From the NCBI GenBank assembly GCA_021844645.1, contig JAKBTA010000035.1, positions 1 to 12,832 on the forward strand: a stretch of 12,832 nt of DNA, given 5' to 3'. This document shows, in pieces, positions 123 through 12,426 of the stretch (positions are counted from its first letter, which is position 1; each line of letters starts with the position of its first letter). Made by a program: the position numbers and the translations under genes. The notes below the pieces were generated by a model. The model was given only the letters and a program-made list of their open reading frames with translations, was not told the DNA's origin and did not search any database. Source of the DNA: Nitrospirota bacterium. Its GTDB lineage: Bacteria > Nitrospirota_A > Leptospirillia > Leptospirillales > Leptospirillaceae.

Positions 123-138
123 TGAGCAATCGTTGCAT
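121..138 (-). CDS. Start of a further gene in the efflux operon, probably second ABC-2 permease (truncated)
   Basis: On the minus strand the permease stop TAA (140-138) shares one base with an ATG (138-136). A good SD (GAGGA, about 150-146) lies seven bases upstream of that ATG. The frame reads Met-Gln-Arg-Leu-Leu-Arg and then runs into the inverted copy at 122-1, where it stays open only because it is reading antisense permease sequence. In E. coli the equivalent place after ybhS holds ybhR, the second permease subunit, so that identity is inferred from gene order alone. Only about 16 to 18 bases of genuine gene remain. Confidence 0.5.
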
Positions 139-1286
139 TATTCAATCCTCTTTCTGCTGACGCGGAGAATCAGTGCAAACAGGAAAATAGCAAACAGCGC
201 AAGTGCCACTGAATTGGGAATGATGACTTTCGGAATGTCTCCCGCTAGAAAGACAGACTGGAGTATGGTGACGAAATAGCTTGCGGGGATAATGTGTGTA
301 ATGGCCTGGATGAAGGGCGGCATCGAATGGATATCAAAAATGAATCCGGAAAGGATAAAGGCGGGAAGAAAGGTAAAGACAATGGCAATCTGTCCCGCTA
401 CAAACTGGTTTTTTGCTGCAGTGGAAATCAGAAGTCCCATTCCGAGTGCCGTTGTCAGAAACAGTGAGGATGTCAGCGCGAGGGTGATAACCGAGCCCCG
501 AAGGGGAACTTCGAAGAGAAACCGGCTCATGAGAACAGACAGCGCCATTCCGCTCATTCCCAAGATAAAATAAGGAATGAATTTTCCGACCAGAATTTCC
601 CCGATCGAAACAGGTGTGACAAACAGTGCCTCCATGGTGCCTCTCTCCCACTCCCTGGCGATTACAAGGGCCGTCAGAAGTGCTCCGATCAGGGTCATGA
701 TGACGGCAATCAGTCCAGGGATGAGAAAATCCCGGCTCCTGTTATCAGGATTGAACCAGATCCTGACCTGAAGCTCTGCTGGCAAGGGGGATGATAGTCG
801 CCCTCGTTGAGCCCGAAGGTGCAGCCATGTTTGCCATGTATTGTTGAGATAGCCCTCGACAAGTCTTGCCGTGTTGTCGTCGACACCATCGACAATGACA
901 TGAATCGGGGCATTATGAAATGATTCGATTCCCCTCCCAAAGTTTTCCCTGAGCCAGAGGATTCCTTCGACATCCTGACGTTTAAGGGCTCCGATGGCAT
1001 CATGAATATTGGCATAGGGTTTTGGTGAAAACCATCGGGAATTTCTGAGGCTTGCGATAAATCCCTCCGATGCGGGGGTGCGGCTGTCCTGCACAACGGC
1101 AATCGGGACATGGCTCGCATCGAGGGAGACTCCATAGCCAAAAATCAGAAGAAGAACAAAAGGAAGGACAAGCGCAATGGCAAGACTCGATGGATCCCTG
1201 ACAATCTGCAGTGACTCCTTGTAAACAAGAGCTCTGATTCTGTTGAGCCGGGCAGAGAAAAATGCACGGCTGGATGAACTATTCAT
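138..1286 (-). CDS. ybhS: ABC-2 type transport permease, YbhS-like
   Basis: Inner-membrane permease subunit of an ABC exporter, 382 residues, the usual length for the family. A cytoplasmic N-terminus with the motif KESLQIVRDPSS leads into a first membrane helix (about residues 35-53). A soluble extracytoplasmic domain follows (about 55-185), then a C-terminal block of five helices from about residue 190, including the conserved AREWERGTMEAL stretch typical of ABC-2 permeases. The sequence closely resembles E. coli YbhS from memory. The ATG overlaps the stop of the upstream ATPase gene as ATGA, and an AGGGTGA SD lies six bases before it, so translation is probably coupled. Its partners are the two-cassette ATPase and HlyD protein encoded upstream; a second permease is expected just downstream. 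The substrate cannot be read from the sequence; the E. coli relatives have been linked to drug and cation export. Bases 287-408 of this gene recur inverted at the window edge. Confidence 0.93.
   Translation of the reverse strand: MNSSSSRAFFSARLNRIRALVYKESLQIVRDPSSLAIALVLPFVLLLIFGYGVSLDASHVPIAVVQDSRTPASEGFIASLRNSRWFSPKPYANIHDAIGALKRQDVEGILWLRENFGRGIESFHNAPIHVIVDGVDDNTARLVEGYLNNTWQTWLHLRAQRGRLSSPLPAELQVRIWFNPDNRSRDFLIPGLIAVIMTLIGALLTALVIAREWERGTMEALFVTPVSIGEILVGKFIPYFILGMSGMALSVLMSRFLFEVPLRGSVITLALTSSLFLTTALGMGLLISTAAKNQFVAGQIAIVFTFLPAFILSGFIFDIHSMPPFIQAITHIIPASYFVTILQSVFLAGDIPKVIIPNSVALALFAIFLFALILRVSRKRIE
287..408. repeat. Partner arm of the 122-bp inverted repeat
   Basis: This arm sits within the permease reading frame, in the part encoding its C-terminal membrane segments. 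It is uninterrupted there and codes for conserved-looking ABC-2 sequence, so this is the native copy and 1-122 is the secondary one. Confidence 0.95.
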
Positions 1287-3064
1287 TGGTGGTCACCCTG
1301 CGTTCTGCTGAAGTCCGAGAGAAGGGAGACAAATGCGTCCTCAAGGGATGGTTCCGGCATTTGGGGTGTACGGGTCTTTTCCTTGATTTCCTCAGGATTG
1401 CCCATCGCGAGAAGTGTTCCCTGTGCCATGATGACAAGTCGATCACAGTATTCGGCTTCTTCCATGAAGTGGGTTGTGACCAAAACGGAGACACCGACGA
1501 TCGCCAGTGCATTGATGATATGCCAGAACTCCCGTCTGGCATTGGGATCAACGCCTGATGTCGGTTCGTCGAGAAAAAGAATGGATGGCTCATGGATCAG
1601 GGCGCAGGAAAGGGCAAGTCTTTGTCTGAATCCCAGTGGGAGGATGCCGGAAGAGACATTCCTGTAGGGTTCAAGCTCAAAGAAGGTCAATGAGTTCTGG
1701 ATTTTTTCCTTTTGCAGAGAGCCGGAAAGCCCATAGGCACTACTGAAGAAGATCAGGTTCTGGAAAACAGTCAGCTGGGAGTAGAGGGAAAACTTCTGGG
1801 CCATGTATCCGATGTTCTGCCTCGCCTGTGCAGCGGCCTTCCGGACATCTTTTCCTGCTACGATGAGTTTCCCTCCGCTTGGCTCCAAAAGACCTGCAAG
1901 CATCCGGAACGTTGTTGTCTTTCCTGCACCATTGGCTCCAAGGAGTCCGAAAACTTCCCCTTTCCTGACATGGAATGTCAGATTGTCCACCGCCCTGAAG
2001 GTTCCAAAATCCCGGACAAGGTTCTCGACATCAATGGCGTTTTCAGGCTTTTCCGGAATATTTTTCTGTTCCTGTGAATGTTTTGGGTAAAGTCGGTCAA
2101 TGGAAATGGTTTTGGGGTTTTCCCTTGTCACTTTTTTAATTCTGGACATGAATGCATCTTCAAATCGTGGCGGTGCTGGATGGAGAAGGATCTTCCCCAA
2201 ACCTTGAGGAACAGATGGCGGCATATCGCTATCCATGACAACCCGCACGGTTGATCCTTCAAGAACGGTGTCCACAACTCCCGGAAGAACTGAAAGCTTG
2301 GGTTCGACAACCCTGAGCGACTGCCCAGGGGCCTCGGCCCGGTATCCTCGTCCTGCCACTTCCATCCTGAAGGCTTCCGGGGTACCGTTCCCAAGGATTT
2401 TTCCATTGTAGAGAATCAGGATTTCGTTGCATCGTTCCGCTTCGTCAAGGTATGAGGTGCTGACAAAAAGGGTGGAACCAGATTCGCTGACAAGCTTCTT
2501 AAGGATTTCCCAGAGCTCCCGGCGTGAAACAGGATCAACTCCAACGGTTGGTTCATCCAGGAGAAGAATGGGTGGCTGATGGACCAGCGAGCAGGCAATC
2601 CCCAGTTTTTGTTTCATCCCTCCGGACAGTTGGCCCGCCAGCCTTTTTTGAAAGGGGGAAAGCCCGGTCATTGCAAGAAGAGGGACGTAGAGATCCTCTC
2701 TGCGATCTTGGGGAACACCCTGAAGGCTGGCATAGAGATCAAGATTTTCCTGGACGGACAGATCCTCGTAAAGTCCAAATTTCTGGGGCATGTATCCAAT
2801 AGATCCCTGGACCGACAAGGGGTCTTTTGATGGGTTGATACCCATGATTTTGATTTCCCCCGAGTCGGGTAAAAGGAGGCCCGCAAGAAGCCTCATCAGT
2901 GTCGTCTTTCCGGCTCCGTCAGGACCGATGAGGCCGGTGATCGACCCTTTTTTGAGGGAAAAGGTAATATCGTCGAGAGCGGTTACAAGGCCTCTTGGAG
3001 AAGGGAATGTTTTTGTCAGGCGATTGGCCGTGATCAGCCCTTCTGGCGAGTCTGGCTCAGCCAC
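1283..3064 (-). CDS. ybhF: Double-cassette ABC transporter ATP-binding protein, YbhF-like
   Basis: Energises the exporter by ATP hydrolysis at the cytoplasmic face. One chain carries two nucleotide-binding domains. The first has Walker A GPDGAGKTT (about residues 47-55), signature LSGGMKQ (146-152) and Walker B ending in DEPTVGVDP. The second has Walker A GANGAGKTT (376-384), the altered signature LPLGFRQ (475-481), Walker B ending in DEPTSGVDP and the switch histidine in TTHFMEEAE (530-538). In the first domain the equivalent of that histidine segment is STSYLDEAE, so the histidine is absent. The frame could open at a TTG at 3127 (614 residues) or an ATG at 3091. I prefer GTG at 3064 (593 residues), which overlaps the upstream stop by eight bases, has GGAA about ten bases upstream and gives the short N-terminus seen in relatives; the start is uncertain. 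The 3' end overlaps the permease gene by four bases. Confidence 0.93.
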   Translation of the reverse strand: MAEPDSPEGLITANRLTKTFPSPRGLVTALDDITFSLKKGSITGLIGPDGAGKTTLMRLLAGLLLPDSGEIKIMGINPSKDPLSVQGSIGYMPQKFGLYEDLSVQENLDLYASLQGVPQDRREDLYVPLLAMTGLSPFQKRLAGQLSGGMKQKLGIACSLVHQPPILLLDEPTVGVDPVSRRELWEILKKLVSESGSTLFVSTSYLDEAERCNEILILYNGKILGNGTPEAFRMEVAGRGYRAEAPGQSLRVVEPKLSVLPGVVDTVLEGSTVRVVMDSDMPPSVPQGLGKILLHPAPPRFEDAFMSRIKKVTRENPKTISIDRLYPKHSQEQKNIPEKPENAIDVENLVRDFGTFRAVDNLTFHVRKGEVFGLLGANGAGKTTTFRMLAGLLEPSGGKLIVAGKDVRKAAAQARQNIGYMAQKFSLYSQLTVFQNLIFFSSAYGLSGSLQKEKIQNSLTFFELEPYRNVSSGILPLGFRQRLALSCALIHEPSILFLDEPTSGVDPNARREFWHIINALAIVGVSVLVTTHFMEEAEYCDRLVIMAQGTLLAMGNPEEIKEKTRTPQMPEPSLEDAFVSLLSDFSRTQGDHQ

Positions 3065-3959
3065 GGGGTGAGAATTCCGGTTTGCGGCCATCCGGACAGG
3101 TTGATGGAGGTGGCTGGTCGGAGACAAGAGGGATTGTTACGGTGACAGGCATCCCGAGCCGGAGCTCTGTTGTTGGACAGCTGAGGTAGACTCTCATTCT
3201 GTAAACAAGAATTGTTCTTTGATGGAGGGTCTGAACTTCTTTGGGAGTGAATTCCGAAGTTGGTGAGATGTACCCGATATAGCCGTAATATTTCCTGCCG
3301 GGGTATGAATCCGATGTGACCGTTGCGATCATTCCCTCATGGACTTTTCCAAGCTCCGGCTCTTCCACATAGACGCGTGCCCATAGAGGGTGGGATCGGG
3401 CGATGGTATAGACCGGGGATGCGGGAAATGCCATGTCACCAGGCTCAAGAATGCGATTCTGGACGATTCCATCGACGGGGGCATAGACCTTTGTGTCGAC
3501 AAGCTGGCGCTGATCAAGGGCAAGTTGGGCTTCGGACTGTCTGATCGAGGCTTTTGCGGCATCCAGGGCCGCTGTGGCATCGTCGAGTTTTTGTTCGGAA
3601 TTGAACTTGGCATGGGCAAGCCTTTTGACCCGGACATAGGTTCGTTGTGCATCTGTCAGCTGAATTCTGGCTCGGTCGAGAGTGGCTTTGTCCGCATCAA
3701 CCATGTCCTGGTAGCGTATGGGGTCAAGTGTTGCCATCAAATCGCCTTTCTTGACGGAAGAGCCTTCAAGATAAAGGAGTTTTTCGATCCTGCCCGTGTC
3801 GTGAAATGCGAGCTGGACCTCCCGTAGGTCAATGTTTCCATAAAGGGTCAGACTGCTTTTCCCTTGATCGCCGGACGAAAAGAGCTTTTTGTGGAAGACG
3901 GTAACAAGGATGGCGGAAAGGATCAGAATCACCAGGAAAATTCGTTTTTTGGGTAGCAT
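3057..3959 (-). CDS. ybhG: HlyD-family membrane fusion (periplasmic adaptor) protein, YbhG-like
   Basis: Periplasmic adaptor that would link the inner-membrane ABC transporter to an outer-membrane channel, 300 residues. A short basic N-terminus and one membrane helix (about residues 6-23) anchor it. A split biotinyl-lipoyl-like domain is seen around residues 40-80 (containing LEGSSVKKGDLMATLD) and again around 160-190 (KVYAPVDGIV, then EPGDMAF). Between them, about 82-158, is an Ala/Gln/Asp-rich coiled-coil hairpin. The C-terminal part is beta-rich. I start at ATG 3959 because GGAG lies seven bases upstream and the membrane helix follows at once; an in-frame extension to 4055 would place 32 unlikely residues in front of it and run into the divergent promoter region. 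It is the first gene of the minus-strand operon and overlaps the ATPase gene downstream by a few bases. Confidence 0.93.
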   Translation of the reverse strand: MLPKKRIFLVILILSAILVTVFHKKLFSSGDQGKSSLTLYGNIDLREVQLAFHDTGRIEKLLYLEGSSVKKGDLMATLDPIRYQDMVDADKATLDRARIQLTDAQRTYVRVKRLAHAKFNSEQKLDDATAALDAAKASIRQSEAQLALDQRQLVDTKVYAPVDGIVQNRILEPGDMAFPASPVYTIARSHPLWARVYVEEPELGKVHEGMIATVTSDSYPGRKYYGYIGYISPTSEFTPKEVQTLHQRTILVYRMRVYLSCPTTELRLGMPVTVTIPLVSDQPPPSTCPDGRKPEFSPRG

Positions 3960-4079
3960 GCCTGCACTCCATGGCGAAAAGTTGTGATTTCGATCAACCA
4001 AATGGCATGATACCACAGCTTGGCAAAATGATGATTTTAAAAGACAGTGCCTCATGCATAAGACGTGGGAGAGGTGTTC
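3960..4079. promoter_or_regulatory. Divergent intergenic region of the efflux locus
   Basis: These 120 bases separate the start codons of the adaptor operon (minus strand) and the outer-membrane factor (plus strand), so promoters for both directions and any shared operator should lie here. The region is AT-rich in the middle (about 4025-4045). I could not find a convincing -35/-10 pair: TTGGCA at 4020-4025 lacks a good -10 at normal spacing. The SD of the plus-strand gene, GGAGAGG at 4068-4074, is at its right edge. No regulator gene is visible nearby. Confidence 0.45.
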
Positions 4080-5456
4080 GTGGCAGTGTGCTCCATTCGT
4101 ACACGTTTTTTCCTGGTTATTCTTGTCCCATTGATTGCGCAGGCGTTCCTGTCTGGCGCCAATATCACTCCTGCGGTTGCTTCCGGTGAGGTTGTTTCTC
4201 TTTCAGAGGCGGTTTCGGAGTCATTGGCGAACCGTCCGGACCTCAAGGCCGAGATCTACCGGGTGAAGAGCGCAAAGGAGAGGGTAGGAGAGTCAAAGTC
4301 AAATTATTATCCTCAGCTTTCTTTAAGTTTTGAAACTATTTATGGGAACAGTTTCTTCGGGTTTTTTCTATTTCCGGGTTATAATTATGCCGATCTGAAT
4401 TTGTTGACGGTCACTCTTTCCCAGACCATCTATGATTTTGGCAGGACTGGTTCGCAAGTTTCCCGGAGCCGATGGGCTCTTGAGCTTGAAAAGGGCCGGG
4501 AAGCAGAAATCTATCAGAATACGATTCGTGCGGCAGAGACTGATTATTTCAACCTTCTTTCGAGTCAGCACCAGGTCCTGGCAGACAAGGAGAACCTTGC
4601 CGATGCCCAGGAACAGCTTGCCCGGGCGGAATACCGGTTCAAGGCCGGAGATGGTGTTATTCTTGATGTCACGAGAGCCCAGGTCAATGTGGAGTCGGAC
4701 AAGCTTCAGCTGATCAGGGACAAGGATGCGGCAAGGTCGATTGCGATCGATCTCGCCCAGGTTATGGGCCGCTCGAAAAGTGAGCGGATTGTTGCCGAAG
4801 ATGTTTCCGTCGATCCAAACAAGGAATCTTTGCCTGATTTTCAAGCCGATCTCGCCAGGGCCATGAAGCACAGGCCCGTGATGATCGAAGCGGTGGACCA
4901 GGTTCGGATGTCCCGGTCGGCCCTGGAAAATGCAAGATCCCAAAACTATCCTTCTGTGACGGGCCTTTTTCAGTCCTTTACCGCAACAATGCCACAGGGA
5001 AGCTTGCCCATTCCTTACGCACCCAACAACACACCTTACTCAACGATCAATCTTGGTGGCGTCATCAATATACCGATCTTTGAAGGAGGGCTGATCATGC
5101 ACCAGATGTCCCAGGCGCATTACGACCTCTCTTCTTCCATTGAGTCCAGAAGGTCTGTGCGGCTGAGGGTCATCACGGACCTCAAAAAGGCCATTCTGGA
5201 GATCCGCGATGCCAGACAGAGACTTGTGGAGGCAAAAACGGAAAGGATGAATGCCGAGAAGAACGAAGTTCTTGTTGAGGAGGCCTATCGTGTAGGGTCC
5301 GTTCACTCTGTCGATGTCATGGATGCGCAAGCCGCCTTGAGACAGGCCCGTGAGTCTGTCATCCAGGCCCGCTACCAGTTGATGGTCGGGTATGCTGATT
5401 TTCAGTATGCCCGAGGGACGTTATCCGTTGAAAGCCTTTCTCCTTCCGGAAGGTAG
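4080..5456 (+). CDS. TolC-type outer membrane efflux protein
   Basis: Outer-membrane channel with a periplasmic alpha-barrel, 458 residues, normal for the family. A signal peptide occupies roughly the first 30-36 residues: a basic start, then a hydrophobic run ending near TPAVASG. The mature part shows the internal two-fold repeat of outer-membrane efflux proteins. A strand motif LSQTIYDFG (113-121) in the first half is matched by INIPIFEGG (329-337) in the second, and each is followed by long Ala/Gln/Arg-rich helices. The C-terminal helix segment RVGSVHSVDVMDAQAAL is typical. Several in-frame GTG codons could start it; I choose GTG 4080 because GGAGAGG (4068-4074) is five bases upstream, whereas the frame start at 4065 has no such site. 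It diverges from the HlyD/ABC operon and is the natural third component of that pump. A 12-base palindrome (5442-5453) precedes the stop but has no T-run. Confidence 0.93.
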   Translation: MAVCSIRTRFFLVILVPLIAQAFLSGANITPAVASGEVVSLSEAVSESLANRPDLKAEIYRVKSAKERVGESKSNYYPQLSLSFETIYGNSFFGFFLFPGYNYADLNLLTVTLSQTIYDFGRTGSQVSRSRWALELEKGREAEIYQNTIRAAETDYFNLLSSQHQVLADKENLADAQEQLARAEYRFKAGDGVILDVTRAQVNVESDKLQLIRDKDAARSIAIDLAQVMGRSKSERIVAEDVSVDPNKESLPDFQADLARAMKHRPVMIEAVDQVRMSRSALENARSQNYPSVTGLFQSFTATMPQGSLPIPYAPNNTPYSTINLGGVINIPIFEGGLIMHQMSQAHYDLSSSIESRRSVRLRVITDLKKAILEIRDARQRLVEAKTERMNAEKNEVLVEEAYRVGSVHSVDVMDAQAALRQARESVIQARYQLMVGYADFQYARGTLSVESLSPSGR

Positions 5457-7617: not shown

Positions 7618-9669
7618 ATGGAGAAAGTAGCTTCCCCCAATGCAGGGGACCGGTCCTTATCGGATGACGAGAAACCGTTTCTGGATTCGAAAGGGAGTTC
7701 TGGCTCCAGTTTTAGGGAAAGACTGGAAGAAGCCATCGCAAAGGCTGCCAGATCTCTTCTGGATCGCCAGCATCCGGAGGGGTATTGGGTCGAACCTCTT
7801 GATGCAGATGTAACCATTCCTGCTGAGTATGTCATGTTTCAGTTTATCCTCGGGAGAAAGGATGAGGTTTTTTTCCGCGATGTAGCGGAGTACATCCTTT
7901 CGATTCAGGGTGAGGATGGGGGGTGGCCTTTATTTACAGGAGGGGCAGCTGACATCAGTGCCAGCGTCAAGGCTTATTTTGCCTTGAAGCTTTTGGGGTA
8001 TTCTCCCGATCATCCGGCTCTGGCAAAAGCGCGTGCGCTCATTCTTGAAAGGGGCGGAGCCACTACTGTCAATGTTTTTACCCGGATCACCCTGGCTCTT
8101 TTTGGGCAATACGACTGGAAGGGTATTCCGGCCTTGCCTTGTGAAATGATTCTGCTGCCAAAATGGTTCCCTCTTTCGATCTATACCGTTTCCTACTGGT
8201 CAAGAACGGTCATTGTTCCCTTGCTGATCATCTATCACTATAAGCCGGTTACCCCGGTTCCTCCGGGACAGGGAATGGATGAGCTGTTTTTAAAACCGAT
8301 GGAGGAGGTTCACTTTGGCTATTCCTGGGATAAAAAACTTTTTTCCTGGAAAAACCTGTTTTTTGTCCTGGATTATTTTATCCAGCACTGGAACCGCCAC
8401 CCCCCTGGATTTTTAAGGAAAAGAGCTCTTGCAAGAGCTGTCGAATGGCTGATTCCCAGAATGAAAGGAGAGGGGGGCCTCGGTGCGATTTATCCGGCAA
8501 TGGCCAACAGTGTCATTGCAATGAGGCTTTCAGGGTACTCGGATGATCATCCGCTTGTGAAAAGGGCTATTGCATCGATTGATGACCTTGTCTTTGCCCG
8601 GGACAACATGCAGTCCGTTCAGCCTTGCCATTCTCCGATATGGGATACTGCGCTCAGCCTTGGGGCCCTTTTTGAGGCGGGTGTTTCTGCCGATCATCCG
8701 GCAATTACCCGCGCACTTGAATGGTTTCGCAGAAAAGAAGTCAGGACTGTTGGCGACTGGTCGGTTCATGTCAAGGGTGTCGAGCCTGGTGGTTGGGCCT
8801 TTGAATTTGAAAACGATTACTACCCTGACGTTGACGATACTGCTGTTATTCTGATGGACTTTGCCAAGTGGACCAATGGATTCAAGGGATATGAAGATGT
8901 TGTGAGGAGAGCTGCCAGATGGGTTCTGGCAATGCAGTGCACGGATGGGGGCTGGGCCTCCTTTGACAAGGACAATGATCTCCTGTTTTTAAACAACATA
9001 CCTTTTGCCGATCACGGGGCGCTGCTCGATCCGTCAACGGCCGATCTGACGGGGCGTGTCCTGGAGTTTTTGGGGCTGTACGGTTATCGGCCCGATTTTC
9101 CACCGGTTGCGCGGGCTCTCGATTACTTGCGTCGTGAGCAGGAAGCTGACGGTTCATGGTATGGTCGATGGGGAGTCAACTATATTTATGGCACATGGTC
9201 TGTGATTTCGGCATTGAAGGCGTTGGGGATCGATATGAAGTCATCGATGGTTCAGCGTGCAATGGGCTTTTTACTTGATCACCAGAATCCAGATGGGGGA
9301 TGGGGCGAAAGCTGCCTCTCCTATTACAAAAAAGAGTCTGCAGGTGTGGGGGATTCAACTCCATCGCAAACAGCGTGGGCTCTTATTGCGCTGGTTCATG
9401 GGGAACATGCGGACAACCCAAAAGTCCGGAAGGGAGTTTCCTGGCTTCTTGAGAATATGCGACAAGATGGCCGCTGGGATGAATCACTCTATACCGGAAC
9501 CGGTTTCCCCAGGGTTTTTTATCTTCGCTATAACATGTACAGAGACTATTTCCCGTTGTGGGCACTAGCCCTTTACCAGAATGTCCATTTCGAGGGGGCT
9601 TCCCGTGTTTCCGGGAAAGTAGCCGTATGGAGGAAGCAGCCCTTTGCCCCTCTCGCCTCATTTTTCTGA
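7618..9669 (+). CDS. shc: Squalene-hopene cyclase
   Basis: Membrane-bound terpene cyclase that folds squalene into pentacyclic hopene/hopanol, the committed step of hopanoid synthesis; also called HpnF. It has 683 residues, within the usual 620-690 range. The catalytic acid motif DVDD (Asp404, Asp406, Asp407) matches the family's DXDD proton donor. Several QW repeats are visible: QHPEGYW from 51, QGEDGGW 97-103, QCTDGGW 440-446, QEADGSW 508-514 and QNPDGGW 556-562. Internal alpha/alpha-barrel repeats also carry the recurring pattern DHPxxxxA (for example SPDHPALAKA, SDDHPLVKRA and SADHPAITRA). All expected core parts are present, so the enzyme looks functional. ATG 7618 has GGAGG ten bases upstream. 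The last 26 bases overlap the next gene, whose SD lies inside this one, implying coupled translation with the phosphorylase. The first 35 or so residues are polar and probably a variable extension. Confidence 0.97.
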   Translation: MEKVASPNAGDRSLSDDEKPFLDSKGSSGSSFRERLEEAIAKAARSLLDRQHPEGYWVEPLDADVTIPAEYVMFQFILGRKDEVFFRDVAEYILSIQGEDGGWPLFTGGAADISASVKAYFALKLLGYSPDHPALAKARALILERGGATTVNVFTRITLALFGQYDWKGIPALPCEMILLPKWFPLSIYTVSYWSRTVIVPLLIIYHYKPVTPVPPGQGMDELFLKPMEEVHFGYSWDKKLFSWKNLFFVLDYFIQHWNRHPPGFLRKRALARAVEWLIPRMKGEGGLGAIYPAMANSVIAMRLSGYSDDHPLVKRAIASIDDLVFARDNMQSVQPCHSPIWDTALSLGALFEAGVSADHPAITRALEWFRRKEVRTVGDWSVHVKGVEPGGWAFEFENDYYPDVDDTAVILMDFAKWTNGFKGYEDVVRRAARWVLAMQCTDGGWASFDKDNDLLFLNNIPFADHGALLDPSTADLTGRVLEFLGLYGYRPDFPPVARALDYLRREQEADGSWYGRWGVNYIYGTWSVISALKALGIDMKSSMVQRAMGFLLDHQNPDGGWGESCLSYYKKESAGVGDSTPSQTAWALIALVHGEHADNPKVRKGVSWLLENMRQDGRWDESLYTGTGFPRVFYLRYNMYRDYFPLWALALYQNVHFEGASRVSGKVAVWRKQPFAPLASFF

Positions 9670-11806
9670 TCACGATTCTCGTTTGTCTTCACGGCCCCTT
9701 TTGATTCTTACACCACTTGAGGAAGAGGCCCGATGTTTGATGTCAGGGCTTCTTCCTGTGCTTAAAAGGCATGGTTTATTGATTCAGCGGGAGAGGGTGG
9801 GGTCTGTTTTCTCCCCGGGGCTCTTCCGCTTGCAGGTTATCGGGATGGGGCCTCCCGATGAGGATGATGATGCGTTCTTGTCGCGCCTGAAACCAGATGA
9901 TGTCGTTTTCCTGGTCGGTTTTGGGGGTGGAATTTCGAGCCGTGCCCAGAGGGGAGATGTTTTCTTTCTCTCTTCGGTCTCCACTTTTCAGGAAAAGGAT
10001 GGCGAGGAATCCCGGCGTTTTTCGGAGGCATCACTGCCTGGCTCATCAATAATGGGGAGAATCTTGGGATTCCCGCTTGGGACAGGGGTCTCCCTTTTGA
10101 AAATTGCAGGAAGTCCCGAAGAAAAAAAAGAGCTTTTCCGGTTGACAGGCTCTGATGTTTGCGACATGGAAACCGGAGCATGGGAAAGAGTCATTCAGTC
10201 GAAGGGGTGCCGGTTTATTGTGGCAAGAGTCATATCTGATTCAGTTGAAGAAACATTGCCGGAGTTTTTAGGGGATCTCATCCAGAAAAACGGGAAGCTG
10301 TCCCTCAGAAAACTGTTGCTTGCGCTTCTTTCACCTCAAAAGCTTCTGGCACTGGTCAAGATCGGTTACTCACAGAGAGTTGCGAGAAAAGGTCTTGCCG
10401 AGCTTGGAAGAAAAATTGGCGTCTTGTTGACGGAAGAATCAAAAGATAAAACCATGGGGGAAGTTTTTCGGGGCTTTTTTCTTGGAGTCCTGGTGATGCT
10501 CTTCCTGGGGAGTTTTTCTGTCAGCGCTTATGCGATTCCTCTCCCGCCACCTGCATCTTCGTCGGGGCCACCGGGAACCGGGCCTTTTTTGAATCCGGGC
10601 AATGGCGAAAGCTTTCCACAGTTGCCGATTGGTGTCCCATCTCCGTTTTCTTTCAGTACTCCAACTCAGAATACGGTTGTCATTCCACTTCCTGCTATCG
10701 GTGTCAGCTACAATACGGGGGTAACGGTCGGGACGATTGTTCCCATCCTTTCTGCCTTGCCCAGCGGCCGTATTACTTCAATCCTTGCACCATCCATCAC
10801 CTACAATCCTTACCTGGGTACCCAGGTGGGCGCGCGTTATTACCGTTATTACAAAGGTAATCTCAAAAGATGGCATCTTATCGGGCTTCAGTCGAACTCT
10901 ATCTGGAACTTTTATGAGTTTCATTACAGAGACCTTTCCATGGGAGATGGTCGATATATTCTTGATATCCGTCTGAAGGATTTCAAGAATCCCGCTGCCC
11001 GATTCTATGGCTTGGGGCCGGACTCCGCTTTTGGAAATCAGTCAAATTACACACTGTCTGAAGCCTCGGCCCATGTGACGGTGGGTGCGAATCTTGACCA
11101 TCAGAAAATCCGGGCCTGGTTTATGGAGCGACTCAGGGAATATGGTGCCTCCCCCGGAGTGATTCCCGGCCTGCCCTACTCCGGGACGGTTTTCCCTAAT
11201 GTCAATGGTCTTTCAAACAATCCTGTGATTATCTCCCATCGGGCGAATGTGACTTATGATACCAGGGACAACCACCTGATTCCGTCGACAGGGACCTATG
11301 CACGGGCTTTTGCAGAACTTGACCAGAACGAAACGGCCGGTGAGGTAAGTGTATTCGATCGCTTCAATGCCGAGTATAAAACATGGATACCCCAGGGGGA
11401 GAATGATCAGAATGTGCTTGCGATCAGGGGGATGGTGAACCTGATGAATGGTCCGAATATTCCCTTCTACGCACAAAGCATGCTGGGAGGCGCGTATACC
11501 CTTGAAGGGTTTGGTACTGGACGTTTCTATGATCTTGATGCGGCCCTTTTTAATGTTGAAGAGCGGATACAGGCTTTTGACATGACACTTCTCGGTGTAA
11601 CCAGTTCCTGGCAAATCGCTCCGTTTTTGGGGGTAGGAGAGGTTTTTCATGATCAGAGGGAGCTTACAAATCCCTCGCTTTATGCAATCAATCCGGGCGT
11701 CGGCTTCCGGGCCCTTGTCGAGCCCAATGTGGTTGGGCGTCTTGACATGGGTTATTCCACCCAGGCGGGGGTCGTGGAGTATGTGGGAATCGGGTTCCCC
11801 TTCTGA
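9644..11806 (+). CDS. hpnG: HpnG-type hopanoid phosphorylase fused in frame to an Omp85-like outer membrane barrel
   Basis: One open frame of 720 residues with two unrelated parts. Residues 1-265 form a nucleoside phosphorylase/nucleosidase-fold protein: TPLEEEA (23-29), GMGP (67-70), GFGGG then RGDV (92-105), DMETGA (174-179) with the ribose-binding Glu176, and RVISDS with catalytic-type Asp199. Directly after squalene-hopene cyclase this fits HpnG, which removes adenine from adenosylhopane to give ribosylhopane. Residues 271-297 are a classical signal peptide ending AYA, then a Pro/Ser-rich stretch, then a beta-barrel with YDTRDN (538-543), LGGAYTLEGF (614-623) and a C-terminal Phe, as in Omp85-type surface antigens. 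The TTG at 9644 has GGAGGAAG ten bases upstream, inside the cyclase gene. A cytoplasmic enzyme ahead of a signal peptide is unlikely as one protein; expect two products or a base error near 10441. The 3' end overlaps a convergent lipoprotein gene. Confidence 0.8.
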   Translation: MPLSPHFSDHDSRLSSRPLLILTPLEEEARCLMSGLLPVLKRHGLLIQRERVGSVFSPGLFRLQVIGMGPPDEDDDAFLSRLKPDDVVFLVGFGGGISSRAQRGDVFFLSSVSTFQEKDGEESRRFSEASLPGSSIMGRILGFPLGTGVSLLKIAGSPEEKKELFRLTGSDVCDMETGAWERVIQSKGCRFIVARVISDSVEETLPEFLGDLIQKNGKLSLRKLLLALLSPQKLLALVKIGYSQRVARKGLAELGRKIGVLLTEESKDKTMGEVFRGFFLGVLVMLFLGSFSVSAYAIPLPPPASSSGPPGTGPFLNPGNGESFPQLPIGVPSPFSFSTPTQNTVVIPLPAIGVSYNTGVTVGTIVPILSALPSGRITSILAPSITYNPYLGTQVGARYYRYYKGNLKRWHLIGLQSNSIWNFYEFHYRDLSMGDGRYILDIRLKDFKNPAARFYGLGPDSAFGNQSNYTLSEASAHVTVGANLDHQKIRAWFMERLREYGASPGVIPGLPYSGTVFPNVNGLSNNPVIISHRANVTYDTRDNHLIPSTGTYARAFAELDQNETAGEVSVFDRFNAEYKTWIPQGENDQNVLAIRGMVNLMNGPNIPFYAQSMLGGAYTLEGFGTGRFYDLDAALFNVEERIQAFDMTLLGVTSSWQIAPFLGVGEVFHDQRELTNPSLYAINPGVGFRALVEPNVVGRLDMGYSTQAGVVEYVGIGFPF
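10454..11806 (+). CDS. Outer membrane beta-barrel protein (Omp85/surface-antigen type), likely separate product
   Basis: Internal ATG at 10454, in frame with the phosphorylase, begins a self-contained 450-residue outer-membrane protein. A 27-residue signal peptide (hydrophobic core GVLVMLFLGSFSVSAYA) is followed by a Pro/Ser-rich linker to about residue 75. Alternating aromatic/polar strands then run to a C-terminal Phe, the usual barrel insertion signal. YDTRDN and LGGAYTLEGF match the surface-antigen (BamA/TamA barrel) pattern, but the usual Arg of the RGF/RGY loop motif is Glu here. No POTRA domain is visible, unlike BamA or TamA. The SD before this ATG is weak: GGAAGA is about 16 bases upstream. 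Substrate and partners are unknown; the location in a hopanoid cluster is suggestive only. Confidence 0.6.
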   Translation: MGEVFRGFFLGVLVMLFLGSFSVSAYAIPLPPPASSSGPPGTGPFLNPGNGESFPQLPIGVPSPFSFSTPTQNTVVIPLPAIGVSYNTGVTVGTIVPILSALPSGRITSILAPSITYNPYLGTQVGARYYRYYKGNLKRWHLIGLQSNSIWNFYEFHYRDLSMGDGRYILDIRLKDFKNPAARFYGLGPDSAFGNQSNYTLSEASAHVTVGANLDHQKIRAWFMERLREYGASPGVIPGLPYSGTVFPNVNGLSNNPVIISHRANVTYDTRDNHLIPSTGTYARAFAELDQNETAGEVSVFDRFNAEYKTWIPQGENDQNVLAIRGMVNLMNGPNIPFYAQSMLGGAYTLEGFGTGRFYDLDAALFNVEERIQAFDMTLLGVTSSWQIAPFLGVGEVFHDQRELTNPSLYAINPGVGFRALVEPNVVGRLDMGYSTQAGVVEYVGIGFPF

Positions 11807-12426
11807 ATTTCCCTTCTCAGACGGTCTTCGGCTGCCCGGTCATTTTTTTTGATAACCTTTTGGACAGATCTTTTATTGCTGTCCAGAAGGCTGCAGGAGA
11901 GATAGGAGACGGGCGACAGAAACAGGTCAACTGTCCCCATCAGAAGTCCATCTGCGAGGAATGTTGGAAAAGAAACATCACCATAGTGCCTGAAGGTGAA
12001 AGCAGGCCGGGCAAAGATACATGTCGCGAGAGATGTTGTTGTTGTTCTCCCCAGCTTGTGCACGTCCCGTGCTGAGTTGACCATATAACGGTTAATGGAA
12101 TATTTATTTGGCCGCAGCAGGGCAGAGTAACGGGTGATATGCCAGTTCTGGTTCTGGTCAAACCAGAAGAGCTCATTCCCTTTGACAAGGTGCTTTCCAA
12201 GAGAGTATCTGGGGTCTGTCCATGAAAATCCGTCTTTTTTGAGAATCGGCTCTATCTGGGCCTCTGCCTTGCGGGACGGGAAAACGGTATCGGGAAGATC
12301 AATTTGAGCTGTATCGAGGGCATTCTGTTTTTCCAGTGGAACCGGCGCCGTGTTGCATGAAGCAATAGACAGCAGAAGGGCGGAGAGGGCGAGGAACTTT
12401 TTTATGACTTTTATTGGGCCGATCAA
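11752..12426 (-). CDS. Lipoprotein of unknown function
   Basis: A 224-residue lipoprotein. The N-terminus has several lysines, a hydrophobic core (FLALSALLLS) and a lipobox IASC with the acylated cysteine at residue 24. The mature part is polar with scattered aromatics and one hydrophobic patch (about residues 150-180, with a Gly/Leu-rich run ending VDLFLSPVSYLSC). A charged segment follows (about 182-205). I do not recognise a family. The start is TTG 12426, strongly supported by GAAGAGG five bases upstream. The gene is divergent from hpnA across 126 bases and convergent with the outer-membrane barrel gene, overlapping its 3' end by 55 bases, so the last 17 or so codons of both genes are antisense to each other. 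Its place between hopanoid genes, on the other strand, could mean a linked envelope role or chance. Confidence 0.8.
   Translation of the reverse strand: MIGPIKVIKKFLALSALLLSIASCNTAPVPLEKQNALDTAQIDLPDTVFPSRKAEAQIEPILKKDGFSWTDPRYSLGKHLVKGNELFWFDQNQNWHITRYSALLRPNKYSINRYMVNSARDVHKLGRTTTTSLATCIFARPAFTFRHYGDVSFPTFLADGLLMGTVDLFLSPVSYLSCSLLDSNKRSVQKVIKKNDRAAEDRLRREIQKGNPIPTYSTTPAWVE
11820..11850 (+). terminator. Possible intrinsic terminator after the barrel gene
   Basis: Fourteen bases after the barrel stop, GACGG (11820-11824) can pair with CCGGTC (11836-11841) with one bulged base. Eight Ts follow (11843-11850). It would end the cyclase-phosphorylase-barrel transcript. It lies inside the coding part of the opposing lipoprotein gene, where the T-run is the antisense of Lys-Lys-Asn codons, so codon use alone could explain it. 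The stem is short. Confidence 0.4.

Follow-up and report, generated by a model that had tools for sequence, protein, structure and literature searches.

The closest described system to the gene analysed here is the cytochrome b/c1 precursor (fbcH) of Bradyrhizobium japonicum, in which one gene gives one precursor and a signal peptidase cut at an internal signal yields two proteins. Our literature searches on precedents for internal-signal polyproteins returned no paper on fbcH among the matches listed, and fbcH is not described in the available part of PMC6256036. The excerpt of PMC12583986 describes HpnG as a putative phosphorylase, acting on adenosylhopane to release adenine and form ribosylhopane. 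In the excerpts of PMC7231039, BamA is named together with hopanoid genes, and expression of the hopanoid system with BamA is linked to acid stress in mine-drainage communities; these excerpts make no mention of an HpnG–barrel fusion, although the fusion may be drawn in Figure 9, whose legend names gene fusion among its event types but not the fusion meant. Omp85 is listed within the hopanoid cluster of L. ferriphilum in the available part of PMC12654047. The accessible sections of PMC10579370 contain nothing on the gene analysed here, and those of the proteomics study PMC5772234 gave no match to the terms searched.

The window, by which we mean the whole 12,832-nucleotide stretch of DNA analysed, contains a frame (9644-11806) that runs without a stop through an HpnG-like phosphorylase, a predicted internal signal peptide and an Omp85-like barrel. 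The features of this region are as follows.

7618..9669, + strand: shc, squalene-hopene cyclase (NCBIfam TIGR01507, 765 bits against a cut-off of 431)
9629..9634, + strand: Shine-Dalgarno sequence GGAGGA of the fused gene (duplex energy -9.3 kcal/mol)
9644..11806, + strand: fused gene hpnG-barrel, 720 aa, start TTG 9644, stop TGA 11804-11806
9695..10444, + strand: HpnG-like phosphorylase/nucleosidase domain, residues 18-267 (Pfam PF01048, MTAN-type fold)
10454..10456, + strand: ATG, proposed as an internal start in the earlier note; without a Shine-Dalgarno sequence and not conserved in the other fused species
10454..10534, + strand: predicted internal signal peptide, residues 271-297 (hydropathy; aligns with the N-terminal signals of stand-alone barrels)
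10526-10534, + strand: predicted AYA cut site, ending at residue 297 (small-X-small motif)
10535..10666, + strand: Pro-rich disordered N-terminus of the predicted mature barrel, residues 298-341 (pLDDT <50 over 287-341)
10673..11803, + strand: Omp85-like beta-barrel, residues 344-720, C-terminal GIGFPF

The 3' end of shc overlaps the fused gene by 26 nt, and the GGAGGA lies 9 bases 5' of TTG 9644, the motif and its spacing being identical in the window and in the related genomes G002 and G003. Database entries for the fused gene are annotated short in two cases (P0002, 688 aa; P0004, 700 aa), although the TTG start with its strong Shine-Dalgarno sequence is located upstream. The earlier note had read the frame as a complete HpnG-like enzyme followed by a complete signal peptide and an Omp85-like barrel, and the open reading frame, Pfam matches, hydropathy and a structure model all agree with this. 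The model has two well-predicted domains, at approximately residues 18-267 and 344-717, joined by a linker with a helix at 272-290 and then a disordered Pro-rich stretch. Kyte-Doolittle values above 1.5, calculated in 19-residue windows over all 720 aa, occurred only at starts 270-283.

Other genes in the window were also noted. On the minus strand, convergent with the barrel gene and overlapping its end by 55 nt, is a gene (11752-12426) for a 224-aa protein with a lipobox-like LLSIASC and no Pfam or NCBIfam match, whose protein cluster is present in 7 of 16 compared loci, the window counted. Adjoining the hopanoid cluster (138-5456) are genes for an ABC transporter (two proteins), an HlyD-like protein and a TolC-like protein (OEP), of which the OEP gene was named by family scan and the others from the sequence as read.

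We confirmed that the fusion is genuine and is not a sequencing error. The frame is open in all three genomes of the genus found among the 61 searched (100, 82 and 81% identity): the nearest, G001, has the same open frame with 3 base differences from the window, and G002 (82%) and G003 (81%) are likewise fused. Two protein searches, in each of which the best 7994 candidates by shared words were scored, yielded 15 protein clusters, four of them fused and 11 barrel-only, the latter at identities of 73% or less. The fused clusters P0002, P0003, P0004 and P0005 have 13, 22, 7 and 2 members, respectively (44 in all, with the window protein itself possibly counted among the 13), and a scan of genome contigs, from which very near genomes may be missing, gave one locus. 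The earlier note had named a missing base near 10441 as a possible refutation, and in sister genera the two genes do lie in different frames, a situation in which a lost base could pass for a fusion. The same open frame, however, is present in assemblies of diverged species (82%, 81% and 72% identical), and its occurrence in 3/3 genomes of the genus and in 4 of the 15 clusters excludes both chance and a lost base. We consider the likelihood of a sequencing or assembly artefact at this position to be negligible.

Outside the genus, the two domains are encoded by two genes. The junction was surveyed in 18 other genomes of the family, of which 17 were readable (G012 was without a match). In every readable junction (16/16 in the main list, plus G004), the stop codon of hpnG is TGA, which with the preceding base gives ATG, GTG or TTG in the barrel frame and so an NTGA overlap; the codon at the overlap is ATG in 3 and GTG or TTG in 14. 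These barrel starts are predicted from sequence, and in G016 there is an ATG a few codons downstream. The two-gene arrangement has the same genes, order and domains as the fused gene, but differs in its overlap, in its barrel having a possible start of its own, and in that the hpnG and barrel frames differ, G004 included. Because of this difference in frame, stop loss alone cannot fuse such a pair, and a frame-shifting insertion or deletion is required.

Separate genes with a stop between them in close relatives were also to count against the fusion according to the earlier note, and such genes are indeed the rule in the sister genera (17/17 readable junctions), but not in the genus itself (3/3 fused). 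This distribution dates the fusion rather than refuting it. In trees constructed from four fused rows (window, P0003, P0004 and P0005), 16 sister genomes and outgroup rows (5 for the barrel, 3 for HpnG), the fused rows were monophyletic for both the barrel (25 rows; support 98/100) and HpnG (23 rows; 100/99). The trees were drawn without P0002, the DNA copies G001-G003, G004 and the barrel-only clusters P0006-P0016, and that for HpnG carries long-branch warnings; branching among the groups of the family is partly settled. The fusion has become fixed in the acidophilic Leptospirillum lineage and forms a single clade.

The first part of the fused protein matches the Pfam family PNP_UDP_1 at residues 67-216, above the Pfam cut-off, and the NCBIfam model for HpnG (TIGR03468) at residues 68-253 with 74.6 bits, which is below the curated cut-off of 187.1. 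We therefore refer to it as HpnG-like. TIGR03468 exceeds its cut-off in only 1 of 61 relatives, and matches below the cut-off are unspecific, being found in 12 of 14 control genomes, none of which has a match above it. The part has a PNP/MTAN-type fold with conserved active-site positions. Its likeness to MTA/SAH nucleosidases and to HpnG lies in the fold and in aligned E, DME and SD positions, the matching MTAN residues being ones that we take to be catalytic; it differs from both in a C-terminus that continues into a signal peptide and in its score under the HpnG cut-off. In its genomic setting the HpnG part sits in a hopanoid cluster beside shc, and in a relative (locus L031) hpnA, ispH, hpnJ and an HpnI-like gene (251 bits, below the cut-off of 310) lie downstream.

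It might be argued that the barrel is the only part that matters and carries a decaying HpnG passenger, given that the HpnG part changes more quickly than the barrel and falls far short of the HpnG cut-off. We regard this as highly improbable. Its dN/dS is 0.14-0.22, a rough value with synonymous sites near saturation, and 15 alignment columns are identical across all 19 HpnG rows, of which 4 are fused and 15 separate. In addition, at E <= 0.001 the only HpnG match in each of G001, G002 and G003 is the fused gene itself. A second HpnG elsewhere in the genus was thus sought and discarded (the genomes being 80%, 72% and 99% complete, respectively). Also within the HpnG part is a run of eight A residues (10120-10127), shared by the three fused genes for which DNA was compared. 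Ribosomal slippage at this run was considered and rejected, since a shift in either direction leads to a stop after 3-35 codons; two lysine codons account for the run.

The second part matches Pfam Omp85 (PF01103) at residues 474-630 with 40.5 bits, above the gathering cut-off of 24, and NCBIfam Omp85_fam (NF047779) at residues 529-720 with 107.8 bits, which is under the curated cut-off of 200; hence we call it Omp85-like. Its fold is that of a BamA/TamA-like barrel, at 11-16% identity to the BamA, TamA and Sam50 barrels of the Omp85 superfamily. It differs from BamA and TamA proper in the location of its gene in hopanoid clusters and in that no POTRA domain was recognised before the barrel in Pfam and NCBIfam scans. 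In the structure model, residues 298-341 are disordered and only short strands, with no helix, are seen at 344-371. The dN/dS of the barrel is 0.01-0.02 (again rough, with synonymous sites near saturation). Both the enzyme and the barrel are under purifying selection.

Between these two parts, residues 271-297 look like a signal peptide, as judged from hydropathy and motif. The peak hydropathy of the core (KD15) is 2.2-2.6 in the four fused proteins vs. 1.6-2.4 in nine stand-alone barrels, and the predicted cut sites are AYA|IP, SYA|IP, SYA|IP and SYA|GP, so that 4/4 retain an [A/S]YA whose residues at -3 and -1 are small. Such retention occurs in a junction (residues 256-297) whose protein identity between species is only 21-40%. 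At the nucleotide level the divergence is 53% and 50%, and frame 0 has no stop in any of the three DNA sequences. In a neutral simulation, the share of runs that kept an open frame together with an equally hydrophobic peak was 0.9%, 2.0% and 4.2% at divergences of 50%, 45% and 35%, respectively, although the simulation was crude (2000 runs, uniform substitutions and no indels). Among the 15 residues before the core, each fused protein has 2-4 that are acidic (charges of +3/-4 in the window), vs. 0-2 in the nine stand-alone barrels. What would mark a polyprotein cut at an internal signal in the manner of fbcH is found here: one frame, no conserved separate start, and a signal-like core with a small-X-small site.

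The earlier note had further suggested that the gene gives two products through internal initiation at ATG 10454. The data do not bear this out: pairing of the Shine-Dalgarno type at this ATG is weak (-0.9 kcal/mol vs. -9.3 for TTG 9644), and three other fused species are without Met there, no Met being present ahead of the signal core in P0003, P0004 or P0005. A weak Shine-Dalgarno sequence alone proves little, as 3 of 9 other open reading frame starts scored in the window are at -1.5 kcal/mol or weaker, these nine being mechanical first starts and perhaps not the true ones. Two proteins could still come from one frame if the long chain were accompanied by a barrel precursor begun at ATG 10454 or at a nearby GTG or TTG, an arrangement that would replace the ancestral NTGA coupled restart. 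This is suggested by the two coupled genes of the sister genera, in which GTG or TTG stands at the overlap in 14 of 17 barrels, by the position of the window ATG exactly at the n-region of the signal, and by weak to moderate pairing before some TTG and GTG codons in G002 and G003. The candidates, each from a single species, are G002 TTG278 (-8.0 kcal/mol), G003 TTG261 (-6.3) and G002 GTG257 (-4.2), and TTG262 of the window corresponds in the alignment to G003 TTG261. For reference, pairing at 400 random positions in the window had a median of -3.2, with the best tenth starting from -7.4 and the best twentieth from -9.0, which places G002 TTG278 in the best tenth.

Several observations speak against this arrangement. 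No in-frame start codon common to the window, G002 and G003 was found at the junction, and a chain begun at G002 TTG278 or G003 TTG280 would be without the positively charged n-region. Moreover, there is no stop between the domains, so coupling of termination to restart is not available. Overall, an internal start is unlikely and nothing conserved supports it; non-ATG starts in single species may occur.

We hypothesize that the gene instead encodes one polyprotein, consisting of an HpnG-like enzyme, an internal Sec signal and an Omp85-like barrel, that is cut into two products and leaves HpnG anchored, and based on the sequences compared here we consider this the probable arrangement. The HpnG part would fold in the cytoplasm, after which the internal signal, with its cytoplasmic N side, hydrophobic core and [A/S]YA, would enter Sec in a looped form. 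A cut by signal peptidase I after residue 297 would then free the barrel, which would reach the outer membrane through BAM, and HpnG would retain the former signal peptide as a C-terminal anchor in the membrane where adenosylhopane, the lipid on which it acts, is found. The two products would be made one to one. As the earlier note rightly observed, the topology of a single chain with a signal behind a folded enzyme is unusual, and a folded enzyme in that position could slow Sec export. The more numerous acidic residues ahead of the signal core and the non-ATG internal starts of G002 and G003 (TTG278 and GTG257, and TTG261, respectively) also count against the polyprotein.

The chain might also remain uncut, with the signal acting as a signal anchor or with HpnG staying attached to the barrel. 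Read plainly, the frame encodes one chain, and an internal signal can serve as a type II anchor. Nonetheless, this seems quite improbable, as small residues at -3 and -1 of the cut site are kept in all four fused proteins and as the barrel, which evolves very slowly, would presumably have to be freed before arriving in the outer membrane. Returning to the cut polyprotein, one internal sequence may have two successive jobs, first as the Sec signal for the barrel and then as the permanent tail anchor of a hopanoid side-chain enzyme; this is a tentative proposal, to which we give rather less than an even chance. If true, the inner-membrane synthesis of a sterol-like lipid would be tied molecule for molecule to production of what is putatively the last, outer-membrane component of a hopanoid or lipid transport route.

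Gene order in more distant relatives bears on that putative role. In all five genomes of the f10 family (G030, G038, G046, G054 and G060), hpnG, MlaE, MlaD-cluster and barrel genes occur on one contig within approximately 5 kb. The order in G060 is shc, hpnG, mlaE, an ABC gene, mlaD, an MlaC/HpnM-like gene, barrel, dxs and ispG, of which family scans identified all but shc and the ABC gene, these two being assigned only through BLAST clusters. The same location of Mla-type genes, between hpnG and the barrel in a hopanoid cluster, was noted at 3725-14052 of locus L037 (G060) and in loci L035, L036, L039 and L041, and these genes in Nitrospira-type genomes (a label assigned here) are a candidate hopanoid transport operon. 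In the f4 family the barrel was matched in five genomes. Three of these loci were viewed, and in two of them, but not in that of G041, it precedes ispH-, hpnJ- and hpnI-like genes. MlaE was found in 60 of the 61 genomes, including all 21 of the window's family (G001-G021). MlaA was considered as an outer-membrane partner in the window's family and set aside, as none of these 21 genomes (64-99% complete) gave a match; it is above the cut-off in 5 of the 61 genomes overall, all of them f10.

The position of the barrel downstream of Mla lipid-transport genes in the Nitrospira-type hopanoid cluster suggests a role in lipid export, and we reasonably infer that the barrel would be the outer-membrane component at which hopanoid or lipid transport ends. 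Its fusion with HpnG is an argument for a joint function of the Omp85-like barrel and hopanoid synthesis, a point relevant to the route by which hopanoids are delivered to the outer membrane in this phylum.

The fused gene also provides a clean evolutionary case, in which a pair of genes overlapping at NTGA has become one frame whose second start is not conserved. Its organisation resembles that of fbcH in that there is one gene and one precursor with an internal signal, cleavage being predicted for the fused gene. The two differ in their parts: the first part of the fbcH precursor is an integral membrane protein, whereas that of the fused gene is a soluble-type enzyme and its second part an outer-membrane barrel. 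As far as our literature searches show, polyproteins with an internal signal are a kind already known, and the combination of a soluble-type enzyme with an outer-membrane barrel is new. With a cytoplasmic enzyme and an outer-membrane barrel in one chain, the gene would be a natural test of which substrates the Sec pathway and signal peptidase can handle.
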